A stretch of 64,000 bases of DNA from an uncultured Pelagibacteraceae bacterium (lineage in GTDB: Bacteria; Pseudomonadota; Alphaproteobacteria; Pelagibacterales; Pelagibacteraceae), in the NCBI GenBank assembly GCA_902635685.1, contig CACPOY010000004.1:31785-95784 (forward strand). Reading direction: 5' to 3'. The position numbers were made by a program, and so were the translations under genes. Under the pieces are notes generated by a model. It searched no databases. It saw nothing but the letters and a program-made list of their open reading frames with translations, and had not been told where the DNA came from. Shown one piece after another: positions 26-5,835 of the stretch (position 1 is its first letter; each line of letters starts with the position of its first letter).

Positions 26-733
26 TTGTTAAAAAAGAATGACCCTTCAAATGTTAAAGATTGTTTTGAGGGATTTAATAGAGCAACGTTTGCTTTTAAT
101 CAGGCATTAGATGGCATTTTATTTGAACCAGTTGCCAAAGCGTATCGAATTCTACCTTCGCCAGTCAGAACAGGTGTTGGAAATAGCTTAAACAATTTAT
201 CTCATCTAGTGACCATACCTAATAATATTCTTCAAGGAGATTTCAAACAAGCTGGCATAAACACCGGGAGATTTGTAATCAATACTACAGTAGGAATTTT
301 AGGAATTTTTGATGTCGCAACAAAAATGGGGTTTTCGGAATATGTAAAGGAAGACTATGGACAATCTTTAGGAACGGCTGGAGTTGGTCCAGGATGCTAC
401 TTAGTTTTACCAGTTTTAGGTCCATCTACTATTAGAGATACCACAGGTTCAATAATGAATATTCTTGGGGGAGACCCGTGGTATAATGTTAGTGTTAAAA
501 ACGACACAAGATATTTTAATGAAAAAGACTATTATGTAAGTCGAGGTACTGATGGCGTAAACTTTAGAGCAAAAAATATTGAGTCTTTTGATAATTTAGA
601 GGAAAATGCAATTGATTTTTATGCTTCCGTTAAGAGTTTATATCTACAAGACAGAAAACAAAAAATTTTAAATACAAAAGGAGTTGTTGATACAATGAAT
701 GACTCTGATTGGGAAGAAATTGAAGACAAATAA
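26..733 (+). CDS. mlaA: MlaA/VacJ family lipid-asymmetry lipoprotein (N-terminus may extend upstream of window)
   Basis: Translation has MlaA-like core: DCFEGFNRATFAFNQALDGILFEPVAKAYR, GRFVINTTVGILGIFDVATKMG, YGQSLGTAGVGPGCYLVLPVLGPSTIRD. Confidence 0.9.
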   Translation: MLKKNDPSNVKDCFEGFNRATFAFNQALDGILFEPVAKAYRILPSPVRTGVGNSLNNLSHLVTIPNNILQGDFKQAGINTGRFVINTTVGILGIFDVATKMGFSEYVKEDYGQSLGTAGVGPGCYLVLPVLGPSTIRDTTGSIMNILGGDPWYNVSVKNDTRYFNEKDYYVSRGTDGVNFRAKNIESFDNLEENAIDFYASVKSLYLQDRKQKILNTKGVVDTMNDSDWEEIEDK

Positions 734-743
734 TTTTTTTAAA

Positions 744-1334
744 ATGATTAAAAAATTAATTGTTTTTAATTTCATCATCTTTTTGATCTCCTTAAATGCG
801 GTACATTCAATAGAACCAGATATTTTCGTTCAATCTACAGTAAATAGGGCATCTGATACACTAAGTGGCAATAAAACAAAAGAGGAGAGAATTGAAAAAT
901 TGAAGCAAATAGCCTTGGATACCGTTGATATAAAAGGCATAGGATTTTACTCTTTAGGAAAACATAGAAAAAATTTAACAAGTGATAAAAAAAAAGAATA
1001 CTCAAAAGTTTTTAAAGATTATTTTCTAAATAGTTTTTCAAGCAGACTCGCAGAGTACTCAAACCCAGTAATAGAGGTAAATTCTAAAGAAAAAATTAAT
1101 GATAATTATACTATAGTTTCGAGTACGTTAGCAGCAACTGACAAAAGACCAGCTATAAAAATTGATTGGAGAATTTATACGAAAAATCCTGATAAACCTT
1201 TAATTAGGGACTTAATCATAGAGGGTTTAAGTCTTGCAAGAACCCAAAAAGAAGAATTTAATTCAATTATTCAAGGTGCTGATGGAGATGTAGAAGTGCT
1301 ATTTGCAAGCTTAAGAAATTTTTCAAAAAAGTGA
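744..1334 (+). CDS. mlaC: MlaC/Ttg2D family phospholipid-binding protein (start moved to ATG 744, signal peptide follows)
   Basis: Follows mlaA; MIKKLIVFNFIIFLISLNAVHS signal peptide; KEYSKVFKDYFLNSFSSRLAEY and VDWRIY-like motifs of MlaC. Confidence 0.8.
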   Translation: MIKKLIVFNFIIFLISLNAVHSIEPDIFVQSTVNRASDTLSGNKTKEERIEKLKQIALDTVDIKGIGFYSLGKHRKNLTSDKKKEYSKVFKDYFLNSFSSRLAEYSNPVIEVNSKEKINDNYTIVSSTLAATDKRPAIKIDWRIYTKNPDKPLIRDLIIEGLSLARTQKEEFNSIIQGADGDVEVLFASLRNFSKK

Positions 1335-1348
1335 AAAACTTTAGTTTG

Positions 1349-1425
1349 TGGTGGGCCCGCCAGGACTCGAACCTGGGACCAATACATTATGAGTGTACTG
1401 CTCTAACCAACTGAGCTACAGGCCC
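1349..1425 (-). tRNA. tRNA with CAU anticodon; probably tRNA-Ile2 (k2C), possibly elongator tRNA-Met
   Basis: Reverse complement GGGCCTG-TA-GCTC..GAGC-A-GTACA-CTCATAA-TGTAT-TGGTC-CCAGG-TTCGAGT-CCTGG-CGGGCCC-A-CCA folds as a cloverleaf; C4-G69 and C5-G68 favour Ile2. Confidence 0.93.
1386..1425. repeat. Left copy of 40-bp exact direct repeat (putative att site within tRNA gene)
   Basis: attatgagtgtactgctctaaccaactgagctacaggccc, identical to 5673-5712. Confidence 0.95.
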
Positions 1426-1544
1426 TTTGATAAATCTAGGTTTTATACGATTAAAAAAGTTAATCAAGCACCAATGTTTATATTTTGTTTCTATTTATTT
1501 ACTTTTTTATCAAAGTTGATTTTATGCTTCTTCATTAATCCACC

Positions 1545-1877
1545 CTAGTTATTTCGCTTATATTGGTTTATCATTTTTTTTTCTATCTTATCAAATCTAT
1601 CTTTGGGAATCTTACTTTTAACAAATCTTAAAATAGTATCGTTGTCAATTTTGTATTTTTTTTCTAATTGCAAACTTGAATAACCATTATTAAACTCAGA
1701 AATTATCCTGTTACCTAACTTTTCATCTATAATATTTCTTCTTTTACCTGAAACTGGAGTATCAGACCAAACTACGCCCCATCTGTTTTTTCTTTTATAA
1801 ATGTGTGTTTTTGTTTTTATGGGACTTGTATTTCCTTTGTTACGTGTTGACGGAGATAAATCAGCTAATTTTGTCAT
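1545..1877 (-). CDS. Hypothetical island protein with possible helix-turn-helix
   Basis: 110-aa ORF; GYSSLQLEKKYKIDNDTILRFVKSKI resembles an HTH; basic N-terminus. Confidence 0.55.
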   Translation of the reverse strand: MTKLADLSPSTRNKGNTSPIKTKTHIYKRKNRWGVVWSDTPVSGKRRNIIDEKLGNRIISEFNNGYSSLQLEKKYKIDNDTILRFVKSKIPKDRFDKIEKKMINQYKRNN

Positions 1878-2433
1878 CTGGAATTTTTAATTTAGATTTT
1901 TTAAAAAGACCTTTAAATGATCCTTCAGAATTAATAAGAACTCCTTTGTCAAATTCATCATCTTTAAAAGTACCTGTAAACGAACTTTCAGTATCCATTG
2001 CTTTTACAAAGTATTTTGGATTATCTGCTCCCACTCCTCTACATTCACCAATTGATGGGTGGTAATTCGACCAAAATCCTTTTCCATTTTTTTTACCATT
2101 TTTCCAATTTCCTTTATAGAATGATACTACTTCTGGTAAATAATTTTGTATTTGAAGTATGATCTCTAGCCCTTTGCCAGTTCTTTTTTTGTTTTTAATT
2201 TTTCCTTTAAAATAGGAAATTGCTGGCCTACCTGGCGATCCAAACTCTTGATTTCTATCTATTGGTTTAAATTTTACCTCTTTATAAGTCCAATTTTTAG
2301 GTTCTGGATAATATCTATCTCCACCTTTGGAAATAATCATTCCCCAAATTACAGAGCTTTTCTTTCGTTCAAAAACTATTTGATAAAATTTTTTATCTCC
2401 AAATTCATTGTTTTTAAATCTAATCCTTTTCAT
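1861..2433 (-). CDS. MORN-repeat-like hypothetical protein
   Basis: FYKGNWKNGKKNGKGFW and FTGTFKDDEFDKGVLINSEGSFKGLF resemble MORN repeats. Confidence 0.6.
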   Translation of the reverse strand: MKRIRFKNNEFGDKKFYQIVFERKKSSVIWGMIISKGGDRYYPEPKNWTYKEVKFKPIDRNQEFGSPGRPAISYFKGKIKNKKRTGKGLEIILQIQNYLPEVVSFYKGNWKNGKKNGKGFWSNYHPSIGECRGVGADNPKYFVKAMDTESSFTGTFKDDEFDKGVLINSEGSFKGLFKKSKLKIPDDKIS

Positions 2434-2948
2434 TTGATATAAAACTTATTTTTTTCTAATTTTTTTTGCTCTTCTTTTACAAATTTTATTGCTAAATTTT
2501 TACTCTTAACTTTTTTTATACAGTAAGCTACTTGGAAGCCTTCTTCAATGTCTTGAAAAAACAATATTATATAAAAGCATTTATTAATTTTTGAACTTAT
2601 TATGAAATAAAAATACCAAGGAGTTGGTTCTTTGTCTCCATAGGCGAAAAGATAATTTTTTTCTAGTTTAAAATTACTATGGACATGATCTAATAAATTT
2701 CCATTCTCCATTGCTTGATCCATAAAATCACCACTATTTTCAACAACATCTTCCTCGAGTTTTTTATAACTTATTTTTTTAGTAGTACTCGATTTTATTA
2801 AATCTCTATATATATCCTGAGGGTTTTTTCGGATAAAAGATGGTGTAGGAGGATAACTAATCTTATTCTTACATTGTTTATCTAAATATTTAATGAATTT
2901 ATTTAAATCAAAATTTTCAACCAAGTCATCAAAGCTATATTTCTTCAT
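2430..2948 (-). CDS. Hypothetical island protein
   Basis: 172-aa ORF overlapping its downstream neighbour by 4 nt; no family recognised. Confidence 0.5.
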   Translation of the reverse strand: MKKYSFDDLVENFDLNKFIKYLDKQCKNKISYPPTPSFIRKNPQDIYRDLIKSSTTKKISYKKLEEDVVENSGDFMDQAMENGNLLDHVHSNFKLEKNYLFAYGDKEPTPWYFYFIISSKINKCFYIILFFQDIEEGFQVAYCIKKVKSKNLAIKFVKEEQKKLEKNKFYIK

Positions 2949-2960
2949 CTAATCACTCTA

Positions 2961-3401
2961 TCATTCTACTTCAGTTAACCATTTGGGCCAAGACCTTGAT
3001 TCAAATTTTCTATCAAGCTTAAATTCGTTGATAATCATTCTTAAAATTTCAGACTTTGAATACCCTTCTTTAAAAAGCTCTTTTGCTCTTTTTATTTTAG
3101 CATTTTTAAGTTTCTGAACTTCTGAACTATATTGAACTAAATTTGATTTATCTCCACCAGGGTTTCCTAGAAGTCTTTTATTTCCTAGCATGCCCTTTGC
3201 TCTTTTTTCTTCAAGAATTTTAGTAAGCTTTTTTCTTTTTCTTAATGCTTCCTCAGCTAAAAATTTACTATTATAGATTTGTAGCCCTCTGAACTCCATT
3301 GGGATATTGCTATTTTTAGTTTGGGGTCTAGAAAATAAAATTTTATATTTTCCATTTGGATTATTTTTATCAACAGGTCTGATTTTATTATGATTACTCA
3401 T
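2961..3401 (-). CDS. Hypothetical basic island protein
   Basis: 146-aa ORF overlapping the nuclease gene by 8 nt; Lys/Arg-rich; no family recognised. Confidence 0.5.
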   Translation of the reverse strand: MSNHNKIRPVDKNNPNGKYKILFSRPQTKNSNIPMEFRGLQIYNSKFLAEEALRKRKKLTKILEEKRAKGMLGNKRLLGNPGGDKSNLVQYSSEVQKLKNAKIKRAKELFKEGYSKSEILRMIINEFKLDRKFESRSWPKWLTEVE

Positions 3402-4938
3402 TAGATTTATTCATTAAAAATTTTATTAGATAATAAAGTGCTAGTGTATCTTTTGCACAATAATCCACTAAATTTTTTATTTGTTTTTTTCTTTGATCAT
3501 CATTTGTTTTTACGTCTGTATAAACAAACCAGGCTAATTGAGCACCATCACCTCCCCCAATATTATCTTGTCCATCATAACTTACAGGACAATCTGGAAT
3601 AGCTTTTATAATTGATTTTATTGTCCATTCACCATTCATTTTTGGAGAGTAAAAATTCATTCTTGAAAGGATTAAACTATCCTCAATTCTATTTATAATT
3701 TTATCTATTTTGTTTGCTAAATCCATACAGCTATCTTTAGTTTTTAGTAAATTTAAAATTCTTATTTCTACCCCTTTAGCGTTGTGTGCAAATATAGTTC
3801 CAGTTTCACCCACAGCTTCCAAAAGAGTTTCAACAAACTGTCTTTCGATATCTTGATCTGTAAACTTTAAAAATGATTTACCATCATCTATTTCTTTATC
3901 TATATTTTCCCACTTATGTACTGACCATTGAAAAGGTAAAGCCTCATAAGGTTGTGTATTTTCTATCAAAGGTACACCCTGTGCAATTGTTTCAAAGTCA
4001 ATAAAATAAAAAGGAAAATTAAATGTTTTAAATATATTTTTTAAATTTGGATCAAACCAATCTTTATTATTTTTGTGAGCCTGTTGAATTATACCATGAT
4101 AATTCAGAGCATAATCTTTTCTATTTTTAAAATATCTTGCTGGTACTTTTTGTAAATCATTACTTTTTATCTCTTCCATATATGATTTTAAGTCCTTGCT
4201 GGCACCAATGTAAGGCAAAATTTTATAAGATGTTTCGTTTGACTTTGGTAACAGAGAAATACATCTATCTTGATAATCACATTCGTAAGGTTTTGTACAA
4301 TGAGCACCCATTGGGACTGAAGGACAAGGGGTATTATTTTCAGTTAATGGAAGTAATTCATTAATATAACTTGGAATTTCTTTCTCAAACTCAACTATAT
4401 TTTCAGAAATGTCATTTTCGTCATTTATTAAATTTTTGTAATCTTTACTTTTATCCAAAGTAAAATCTTTGTTGATATGTATTACTTTGCAACTAACTAA
4501 TTCTTGACCGAACTCTCTCAAACATTTTCTTACAATAAAAGATTGGATGGATATATCTGGATAGTGTTCGTTTTTAATTTTAGTAGACGATTTTGCTTCT
4601 AATAGTTCCCAACCATTTTCTTTTCGAATAAGCACATCTGTTCTTACTTGAGTATCTAAATATTCAAAAGTACCTTCATAAATTACGTTGATCTCTTTTG
4701 AGTTTATTGCGTCTTTGGTTTTAACAATTAAATCATCCCAAATTCCTGTAAGATTTAACTCCTTACCATGAATTTTTGTATAATGTTTCCTTATAACTTC
4801 ATTAAAACGCTCACCTCTTTCAAATGTAGCTTTCTTTACTTTTTTTGCAGGTTCATGAATGTCAAACCAAAGTTTTTTTTTACATTGTAATCCACTAGCA
4901 ATTTTACTTTTGGTGAGTCTGTAAGTTTTGGGATTCAT
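3394..4938 (-). CDS. Cas4-like Fe-S PD-(D/E)XK nuclease fused to DEDDy 3'-5' exonuclease domain (DUF2779-like)
   Basis: N-terminal SGLQCKKKLWFD, VRTDVLIRKENGWELLEAKSSTKIK (D..ExK), cysteine cluster CPSVPMGAHCTKPYECDYQDRC; C-terminal FYFIDFET (Exo I), FAHNAKGVEIRIL (Exo II), YCAKDTLAL (Exo III). Confidence 0.85.
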   Translation of the reverse strand: MNPKTYRLTKSKIASGLQCKKKLWFDIHEPAKKVKKATFERGERFNEVIRKHYTKIHGKELNLTGIWDDLIVKTKDAINSKEINVIYEGTFEYLDTQVRTDVLIRKENGWELLEAKSSTKIKNEHYPDISIQSFIVRKCLREFGQELVSCKVIHINKDFTLDKSKDYKNLINDENDISENIVEFEKEIPSYINELLPLTENNTPCPSVPMGAHCTKPYECDYQDRCISLLPKSNETSYKILPYIGASKDLKSYMEEIKSNDLQKVPARYFKNRKDYALNYHGIIQQAHKNNKDWFDPNLKNIFKTFNFPFYFIDFETIAQGVPLIENTQPYEALPFQWSVHKWENIDKEIDDGKSFLKFTDQDIERQFVETLLEAVGETGTIFAHNAKGVEIRILNLLKTKDSCMDLANKIDKIINRIEDSLILSRMNFYSPKMNGEWTIKSIIKAIPDCPVSYDGQDNIGGGDGAQLAWFVYTDVKTNDDQRKKQIKNLVDYCAKDTLALYYLIKFLMNKSNE

Positions 4939-4940
4939 GA

Positions 4941-5381
4941 TTAATTATCCATTGAGTAATACTTTTTGAATTTATTTTTGAATTTGTCATAAATTCTTTT
5001 ATCAATTTCATTGTAATATTTTTTGGATTTGGGATCTACACCTTCAAACTCTACCAATTCCTTATGTATTTTAAATGCTGCATTTGTCATGAGCTCATCG
5101 TAGCCAAACCAACAATTATGTTTTGCCCACTTCTCAGCTTTAGGATCAATATTAAATTTCTCTTTTTTATAATATTTCCAATCAATTTTGCCATAAATTT
5201 TGTGAGCAAAGCTTTTTAAGTGTTTAATAAAAAAACGAATTAAATTTAATGTTCCAACCAATAAGTAAGTTTTAATAATCTTAAGTTTCTTTTTTCGTCG
5301 CATATATCCTTTCTCATACCAAAAGTTTGATAAGGATACATTAATCCTAAGTATAGATCTTCGAATCCAATACCAAACCAA
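4941..5381 (-). CDS. Hypothetical membrane-anchored protein with phage-like C-terminal motif (start may be ATG at 5303)
   Basis: Hydrophobic segment IIKTYLLVGTLNLIRFFI; C-terminal AEKWAKHNCWFGYDELMTNAAFKIHKELVEFEGVDPKSKKYYNEIDKRI. Confidence 0.5.
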   Translation of the reverse strand: MVWYWIRRSILRINVSLSNFWYEKGYMRRKKKLKIIKTYLLVGTLNLIRFFIKHLKSFAHKIYGKIDWKYYKKEKFNIDPKAEKWAKHNCWFGYDELMTNAAFKIHKELVEFEGVDPKSKKYYNEIDKRIYDKFKNKFKKYYSMDN

Positions 5382-5450
5382 ATGGTTTTATATTGTTACA
5401 TTTATTTATGTTGATTGGATAAAGTTAAAAAAAGTTAAAAACATTTATAT

Positions 5451-5510
5451 GGGAAGAGAAAATACACCGTTTAAGATCTATAAAGAAAAACGATCGTATT
5501 TACTCTTCCC
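5451..5510. other. Long inverted repeat / hairpin at the upstream end of the island
   Basis: gggaagagaaaatac .. gtatttactcttccc, 14/15 complementary arms, with an inner cgttt/aaacg stem. Confidence 0.75.
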
Positions 5511-5672
5511 AAAACGTTAATAAATAACTCTATTAATCAACAATACTATCATAAACATTTTCAAAAAAGATTCAATCTGTTGGTAAATAGTTGGTAAAAA
5601 AATTTCAATTTAAAGTAGATAAAATTAGCATTGGTAACTAAGGATTATAATAAAAAAAAAATTGAACAAGAA

Positions 5673-5712
5673 ATTATGAGTGTACTGCTCTAACCAACTG
5701 AGCTACAGGCCC
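5673..5712. repeat. Right copy of 40-bp direct repeat: orphan 5' half of tRNA(CAU)
   Basis: Identical to 1386-1425; no 3' half adjacent. Confidence 0.95.
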
Positions 5713-5760
5713 AAGAAAAAAGTATTTATATCAAATTTTGAATTCTTTCAAGTTTAGTCT

Positions 5761-5835
5761 TGGTGGGCCGTGTTGGTTACGCTCCAACTACCCCTGCAAT
5801 GTCAATGCAGTACTCTACTATTGAGCTAACGGCCC
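5761..5835 (-). tRNA. tRNA-Val (GAC)
   Basis: Reverse complement GGGCCGT..CTGCA-TTGACAT-TGCAG..ACGGCCC-A-CCA; anticodon GAC. Confidence 0.93.

Follow-up and report, generated by a model that had tools for sequence, protein, structure and literature searches.

Organization of the locus

The window analysed here is a stretch of 64,000 nucleotides from the genome of an uncultured Pelagibacteraceae (SAR11) bacterium (contig CACPOY010000004.1 of assembly GCA_902635685.1). It contains an element inserted into a tRNA gene with the anticodon CAU, tRNA(CAU), between the host gene mlaC and a gene for tRNA-Val. The features that define the insertion are the following:

699–1334 (+): mlaC, host flank, used as the probe for empty sites (family and homologue search)
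1349–1425 (−): intact tRNA(CAU), probably tRNA-Ile2, read as a hybrid attR with the 5′ part from the element and the 3′ part from the host (ARAGORN, genome and element comparison)
1386–1425 (−): 40-bp direct repeat, copy within the intact tRNA, nucleotides 1–40 (exact match)
1426–1509 (−): leader of the intact tRNA brought in by the element; about 84 bp, rich in AT, TATAAA-like box (element alignment)
5579–5597 (−): pair of arm-type sites TTACCAACTATTTACCAAC spaced 11 bp apart, 75 bp from the orphan junction on the element side
5673–5712 (−): orphan tRNA 5′ half, nucleotides 1–40, attL (exact match, junction alignment)
5713–5760 (−): native leader of the tRNA(CAU) gene, matching the empty-site leader of genome G051 (alignment)
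5761–5835 (−): tRNA-Val(GAC), host flank (ARAGORN)

An exact 40-mer occurs in the window sequence at 1386–1425 and again at 5673–5712, both times on the minus strand. When the comparison is extended to 49 bp, the two copies are 94% identical, and every mismatch lies outside the 40 bp. Corresponding positions of the repeats are 4,287 bp apart, which is the length of the insertion. The initial annotation, made from the letters of the window, had described exact 40-bp direct repeats bounding an insertion in tRNA(CAU), and both the insertion and its coordinates were confirmed, with the size of about 4.25 kb given there replaced by the measured distance. Between the repeats lie six open reading frames (ORFs) of at least 60 residues, all on the minus strand. 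The strand had been given correctly, whereas the count of five had not, because the sixth ORF (4941–5381) has a TTG start. A family search of the six ORFs found no recombinase match, which bears out the earlier statement that none of the ORFs then listed resembles a tyrosine or serine recombinase.

ARAGORN identified an intact tRNA of 77 nt with the anticodon CAU at 1349–1425 (−) and tRNA-Val(GAC) adjoining the orphan half, and called no tRNA at the orphan itself. The repeat corresponds to nucleotides 1–40 of the tRNA: it spans the 5′ half, runs through all of the anticodon loop, and ends with the first base of the anticodon strand on the 3′ side. Within the whole genome of the same bacterium, the 77-nt gene is matched once over its full length and once over 49 nt, the partial match being the orphan, and the next-best matches are to tRNA-Ile(GAT) (74%) and tRNA-Asp (21 nt). 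Because the nearest paralogue in the genome is tRNA-Ile(GAT), and similar phage genes are annotated as tRNA-Ile in several records, the interrupted gene is probably tRNA-Ile2(CAU) rather than a methionine tRNA.

Empty sites and rebuilding of the tRNA gene

The same locus was drawn from relatives of the host by mlaC search. In the near relatives G029 and G051 (mlaC 93% identical), an intact tRNA(CAU) gene lies beyond tRNA-Val at a distance of 67 and 49 nt, respectively. The empty tandem of tRNA-Val and tRNA(CAU), which the initial annotation had proposed to look for, is also present in many further genomes. The window flanks, when joined at the repeat, align end to end with the empty site of G051.

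The orphan retains the native leader on the tRNA-Val side, while the leader of the intact gene occurs in other elements: it is 92% identical to that of element L213 and, over 75 bp, 91% identical to that of L060. Since the orphan leader agrees with G051 and that of the intact tRNA with other elements, the comparison indicates that the native 5′ half was turned into the orphan and that the element brought a new 5′ half together with a new leader. The suspicion that the 5′ half of the intact gene had been supplied by the element was therefore well founded. The tRNA gene appears to be rebuilt from its 5′ side by an insert that carries the leader. This leader may supply the promoter for the rebuilt tRNA; a promoter scan did not single it out.

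A family of insertions in two genera

A scan of 399 genomes of the same genus with the 40-mer identified 16 with a second copy of nucleotides 1–40. Both copies are on one contig, at the tRNA(CAU) locus, in thirteen of the sixteen, and on separate contigs in the other three. Three additional genomes were found via the arm sites described below, and six via a second sample, two of these from another genus. In total, 25 genomes from two genera contain an insertion in tRNA(CAU), 24 besides that of the window. Element length ranges from 1.6 to 19.6 kb where one contig holds both ends. The orphan identity ends at nucleotide 40 in nearly all elements; the exceptions are G153, where it covers nucleotides 1–33, and three elements in which it extends to nucleotide 45 or 46 with one mismatch. 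GTDB records of the same locus are Pelagibacteraceae, many of them single-cell genomes, and identical junctions are also present in G444 and G498, which are single-contig genomes, 99% complete. In having variable cargo added at a tRNA gene and the end of the tRNA directly repeated, the insertions are like additive flexible genomic island (fGI) cassettes.

Tandem or composite cases were found in L202, L208, and L273. In L202 (G247), with the orphan at 3583–3622, the preceding DNA looks like a leader from a further cassette, which points to tandem insertion. In L273 (G674), one tRNA carries a 3′-side orphan and a 5′-side cassette. Upstream of tRNA(CAU) in L006, L042, and L062, where there is no orphan, the leader resembles a cassette leader, and these sites are possibly scars of past occupation.

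Paired arm sites at the element ends

When the junctions were aligned, TTACCAACTATTTACCAAC was seen on the inner side of the orphan, and TTACCAAC-N4-TTACCAAC ahead of the intact tRNA. A direct TTACCAAC pair with 11-bp spacing is present at all of the orphan ends (23/23), 74–75 or 94 bp inside the junction, with an offset of 83/94 at one end. The tRNA ends contain the pair in 20 of 23 cases, with a spacing of 11–12 bp, at 92–95 or 103–106 bp. These offsets differ by about one or two helical turns. No TTACCAAC pair was found beside 37 control tRNAs without an orphan or in 20,000 simulated stretches. Across 201 genomes, the N4 form of the pair is confined to the vicinity of tRNA(CAU), except for one internal copy in the element of G166. 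This 19.6-kb element contains a fused internal array of three TTACCAAC sites at spacings of 11 and 12 bp (L208, 6060–6090), an arrangement that would result if the tRNA half between two tandem cassettes were lost.

Paired direct arm sites flanking a core are typical of heterobivalent integrases and not of Xer/dif sites. The element ends have phased direct arm repeats on both sides of the core, as expected of a substrate of a lambda-type (heterobivalent) integrase, although in the window they are present on the orphan side only; judged by sequence, the ends are built like a lambda-type attP. Independent evidence for this reading of the arms comes from the viral contig L370, which encodes a lambda-type integrase (PF09003 and PF00589) and contains three GTTGGTAA sites at 11-bp spacing between the integrase gene and a tRNA-Pro-like 3′ half.

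Recombinases, search for a helper, and cargo

Proteins with the tyrosine recombinase domain PF00589 number one or zero per genome among 16 element-bearing genomes and are encoded away from the element. The complete genomes G444 and G498 each have one such protein of about 325 residues, outside the element, and the single PF00589 protein is most simply explained as the chromosomal Xer. G592 has a second PF00589 protein, on a contig other than that of its element. PF00589 was found in no element for which the position of the match is known; G659 was outside the search, and the position of the single match in G203 and G043 was not listed. Serine resolvases (PF00239) were found in none of 20 genomes. 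Two ORFs of L204 that resemble the C-termini of serine recombinases were considered, and no Pfam family matched them. These absences rest on whole-genome searches, and the Pfam tables of the elements hold the first 25 families for two of the three groups. Among the Pfam families listed for the elements, there were neither conjugation families nor a satellite module.

No gene family is common to all elements, and the commonest occurs in eleven. L200 and L276 contain a single ORF each. The cargo enzymes include C5 and N6/N4 methyltransferases, HNH and PD-(D/E)XK nucleases, and CHAT/caspase and trypsin proteases; other cargo includes Z1/GHKL proteins with an MzaC match, Hsp70, leucine-rich repeat, and PrsW proteins. 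As judged by family matches, the cargo is mostly unrelated between elements and often defence-like.

Exact scans of IMG/VR with the 40-mer, the 3′ half, the arm pair, and the core plus arm pair gave no matches. The scans detected no element DNA in viral contigs, which is only weak evidence against packaging of the elements in the virions of a helper phage. A looser scan of IMG/VR for the arm pair returned at least 118 stretches, mostly chance or coding repeats; among the matches listed, only L370 is convincing, and L382 has an integrase-like ORF some distance off. When the attP-like junction of G444 was compared with phage records, nearly all the matches listed were to tRNA genes. No integrase-bearing element with TTACCAAC arms was found in the sampled genomes.

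Transfer between hosts

A methyltransferase gene carried by the elements is 92.6–99.0% identical at the DNA level in four hosts, the mlaC proteins of which are only 54–70% identical. The closest pair is that of G444 and G592, with 99.0% DNA identity of the methyltransferase and 67.7% identity of the mlaC proteins. The stretch of 97% identity between these two genomes ends no more than a few bases from the orphan tRNA half, and the mlaC side is 76% identical (DNA). The position of this boundary fits site-specific transfer and not recombination driven by the flanks. At the DNA level, the gene at 2961–3401 of the window has copies of 87–90% identity in hosts the mlaC proteins of which are 62–64% identical. 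Near-identical cargo in distant hosts indicates that the elements have recently moved between species.

Proposed mechanism of mobilization and alternative explanations

Based on the empty and filled sites, the conserved junctions, and the spaced sites at the element ends, a mechanism can be proposed. The elements are probably cargo-only cassettes of SAR11 that are defined by their attachment sites and moved in trans by a lambda-type tyrosine integrase. The cassette would be a DNA circle containing cargo and an attachment site, the latter consisting of nucleotides 1–40 of tRNA(CAU) with TTACCAAC pairs on either side. A lambda-type tyrosine integrase, presumably provided by a phage or another element, would attach to the paired sites through its arm domain and carry out recombination at the core, which lies in the anticodon loop of the tRNA gene of the host. 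Insertion would leave the native 5′ half orphaned beside its own leader, and the tRNA would be rebuilt from the cassette 5′ half and the host 3′ half behind the cassette-borne leader.

The initial annotation had left open whether the element is mobilized in trans or has lost its integrase. The evidence favours mobilization in trans by a wide margin, because spaced arm-like sites are kept in 25 elements that differ in their cargo and have no recognised integrase; the label of phage satellite, which had also been offered, remains unproven. Several points weigh against the proposed mechanism. Very divergent recombinases may escape a family search. A helper with these arm sites was not found in IMG/VR, in phage records, or in the sampled genomes. 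Many of the sampled genomes are drafts or single-cell assemblies. Furthermore, the element of the window is itself one of the three without an exact arm pair on the tRNA side, where only the first 75–84 bp are common to other elements. The missing pair casts doubt on the mobility of the window copy, which may be stranded and no longer able to excise.

The integrase could instead have been lost. In that case the insertions would resemble cis-mobilizable elements (CIMEs), once autonomous, with the integrase deleted and the att sites left over. Such decay is the standard origin of integrase-less elements bounded by att sites (PMC5704250), and it would account for the window copy without one arm pair; autonomous integrase-bearing elements do use tRNA(CAU), from its 3′ side. 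However, decay should erase the arms, and their sequence and spacing are preserved even though no recognised integrase is kept in any of the 25 elements. The near-identical cargo in distant hosts also speaks of recent movement, and we consider decay unlikely.

It is more doubtful still that the cassettes are moved by the chromosomal tyrosine recombinase of the host (about 325 residues, PF00589, presumed Xer), as in integrative mobile elements exploiting Xer (IMEX). G444 and G498 hold no other PF00589 protein, and the tRNA stretch CATAATGTAT is, we assume, also part of the Escherichia coli dif site. Nevertheless, the core is a tRNA anticodon loop, direct arms are paired on both of its sides in a manner not typical of Xer/dif, and the pairs match those beside the genuine lambda-type integrase of L370.

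There is very little room for a replacement island, in which the cargo of one ancient insertion would have been swapped by homologous recombination through the flanks. Polysaccharide-type genes are present at the same locus in other genomes, and SAR11 is known to recombine often, but the closest relatives have empty sites, the identity shared by G444 and G592 stops at the tRNA half, and the arms and junctions are constant across two genera while the host flanks differ. Chimeras of assembly or single-cell amplification, suggested by the many relatives known from single-cell genomes, are already refuted for the family by the same junctions in G444, G498, and many others and by the conserved internal sites.

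The genomes of SAR11 bacteria are highly streamlined, and few mobile elements are known in them. We think it probable, with less confidence than in the movement in trans itself, that SAR11 draws, together with at least one sister genus, on a common pool of cassettes that carry cargo only, defence genes in many cases and a single gene in some. The cassettes would be defined by nothing but an att site and exchanged between species by an integrase that they do not encode, and would form, in the marine bacteria that are most abundant, a tRNA-based counterpart of integron cassettes. Such a pool would provide an acquisition route for SAR11 anti-phage systems, with a fixed landing site, a boundary signature, and cargo common to distant species. 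The signature, an orphan of tRNA nucleotides 1–40 with TTACCAAC pairs, makes the helper searchable and enables the cassettes and their defence genes to be listed straight from genomes.

Relationship to known systems

Among the open-access papers searched, none was found to describe the SAR11 family or the arm sites. The nearest precedent is the tRNA-directed cassettes of Ca. Actinomarinales (PMC7771536) and of fGI-2 of Methylophilaceae (PMC10872708), and the nearest concept is the CIME (PMC5704250). The island cassettes of Ca. Actinomarinales and Methylophilaceae are, like the SAR11 family, directed to tRNA genes and exchanged between genera; the portions of the reports available describe repeats and mention no arm sites or recombinase (PMC7771536, PMC10872708). 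The SAR11 family differs from them in the duplicated 5′ half, the core in the anticodon loop, and the spaced arm pairs that define the family. As in CIMEs, the SAR11 cassettes have att sites on both sides and neither a recognised integrase nor transfer genes (PMC5704250). CIMEs are decay products of integrative and conjugative elements or integrative and mobilizable elements and, following accretion, lie in tandem with a helper (PMC5704250), whereas the SAR11 cassettes are numerous, have intact arms, are mostly alone at their site, and show no recognised conjugation genes or remnants.

Integron cassettes and clusters of attC sites lacking integron integrases (CALINs) are also units of cargo, some of a single gene, set by a recombination site and served by an integrase in trans (PMC11389934). 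The integron site is attC, while that of the SAR11 cassettes is a tRNA half with arm pairs that is inserted into a tRNA gene, normally one unit per site. Tycheposons of Prochlorococcus are likewise marine cargo elements bordered by tRNA genes, with tRNA-Met(CAU) among their targets, and are described as having a tyrosine recombinase, which was not recognised in the SAR11 cassettes (PMC10872708, PMC11389934). Phage satellites (phage-inducible chromosomal islands, P4-like elements, and phage-inducible chromosomal minimalist islands) resemble the SAR11 elements in being small, chromosomally integrated, helper-dependent, and equipped with defence systems. Known phage satellites generally encode their own integrase. 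In addition to an integrase, such satellites have replication and packaging or capsid-hijacking genes. The SAR11 elements were found to have no integrase, no gene common to all of them, and, among the Pfam families listed, no satellite module, and no packaging or regulatory module is common to them.

Genes of the window element

The ORFs of the window element are the following:

1545–1877 (−): 110 residues, no family; near the usual place of the tRNA-side arm pair in other elements
1861–2433 (−): 190 residues, weak MORN-repeat match under the Pfam cut-off
2430–2948 (−): 172 residues, homologue in element L235 (G153)
2961–3401 (−): 146 residues, common to seven elements of different hosts; fold unassigned
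3394–4938 (−): 514 residues, DUF2779 at residues 311–438 (E 1e-24)
4941–5381 (−): 146 residues, TTG start, pelagiphage-like C-terminal third

The protein encoded at 2961–3401 is 83–93% identical in amino acids to five other element copies with which it was aligned. Its structure model, which is mediocre (predicted local distance difference test 74, predicted template modelling score 0.41), contains three strands and helices; the model gave no fold match at E 0.001, and the protein showed no similarity to the N-termini of integrases. We considered the protein as an accessory or excision factor; it is missing from most elements and cannot be the mover. A very weak match and sequence motifs suggest that the N-terminus of the 514-residue protein contains a Cas4-like PD-(D/E)XK nuclease domain. 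Residues 78–132 of the protein encoded at 4941–5381, about 50 residues, resemble proteins of the pelagiphages HTVC023P and HTVC027P (53–62%) and also match PHROG 28737. When 023Pt_psg01 is included with these two pelagiphages, the C-terminal third of the protein is 53–65% identical to the phage proteins. This likeness connects the cassette with phages that share its host.

Other insertions at or near tRNA(CAU)

Autonomous elements are inserted on the 3′ side of tRNA(CAU) in G427, G395, G317, and G010 (L239–L242). They encode a tyrosine integrase of 315 residues 90 bp from the orphan, duplicate nucleotides 25/26–77, and lie across the tRNA gene from the 5′-side cassettes. They use the same tRNA as the 5′-side cassettes, with crossover in the same region of the anticodon loop, and no TTACCAAC arms were found in their loci. 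Integrases with this tRNA specificity thus exist in SAR11, with other arm motifs. No relative of the 3′-side integrase was found in viral contigs.

Small inserts of 1.4–2.4 kb without a recognised integrase are located on the mlaC side in G441, G231, G031, G257, G179, and G045 (L217, L218, L219, L221, L222, and L068), where they leave an orphan 3′ half of nucleotides 33–77 or 24–77. G179 (L222) has two such inserts in tandem. An extra copy of the 3′ half is present in 18 of 290 genomes. A GTACTCACT-like motif is common to the elements of L239–L242 and the inserts of L220 and L222, and the autonomous elements could be helpers for the small 3′-half inserts.

In L036, L039, L061, L062, L065, L067, and others, the gap between tRNA-Val and tRNA(CAU) contains genes that by inspection resemble those of sugar or polysaccharide biosynthesis. 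These insertions have neither orphan nor arms and were left out of the family. In G343, G362, G448, G404, and G274 (L246–L250), tyrosine integrases 36% identical to the 3′-side integrase adjoin a different tRNA(CAU) gene, which is another integration hotspot.

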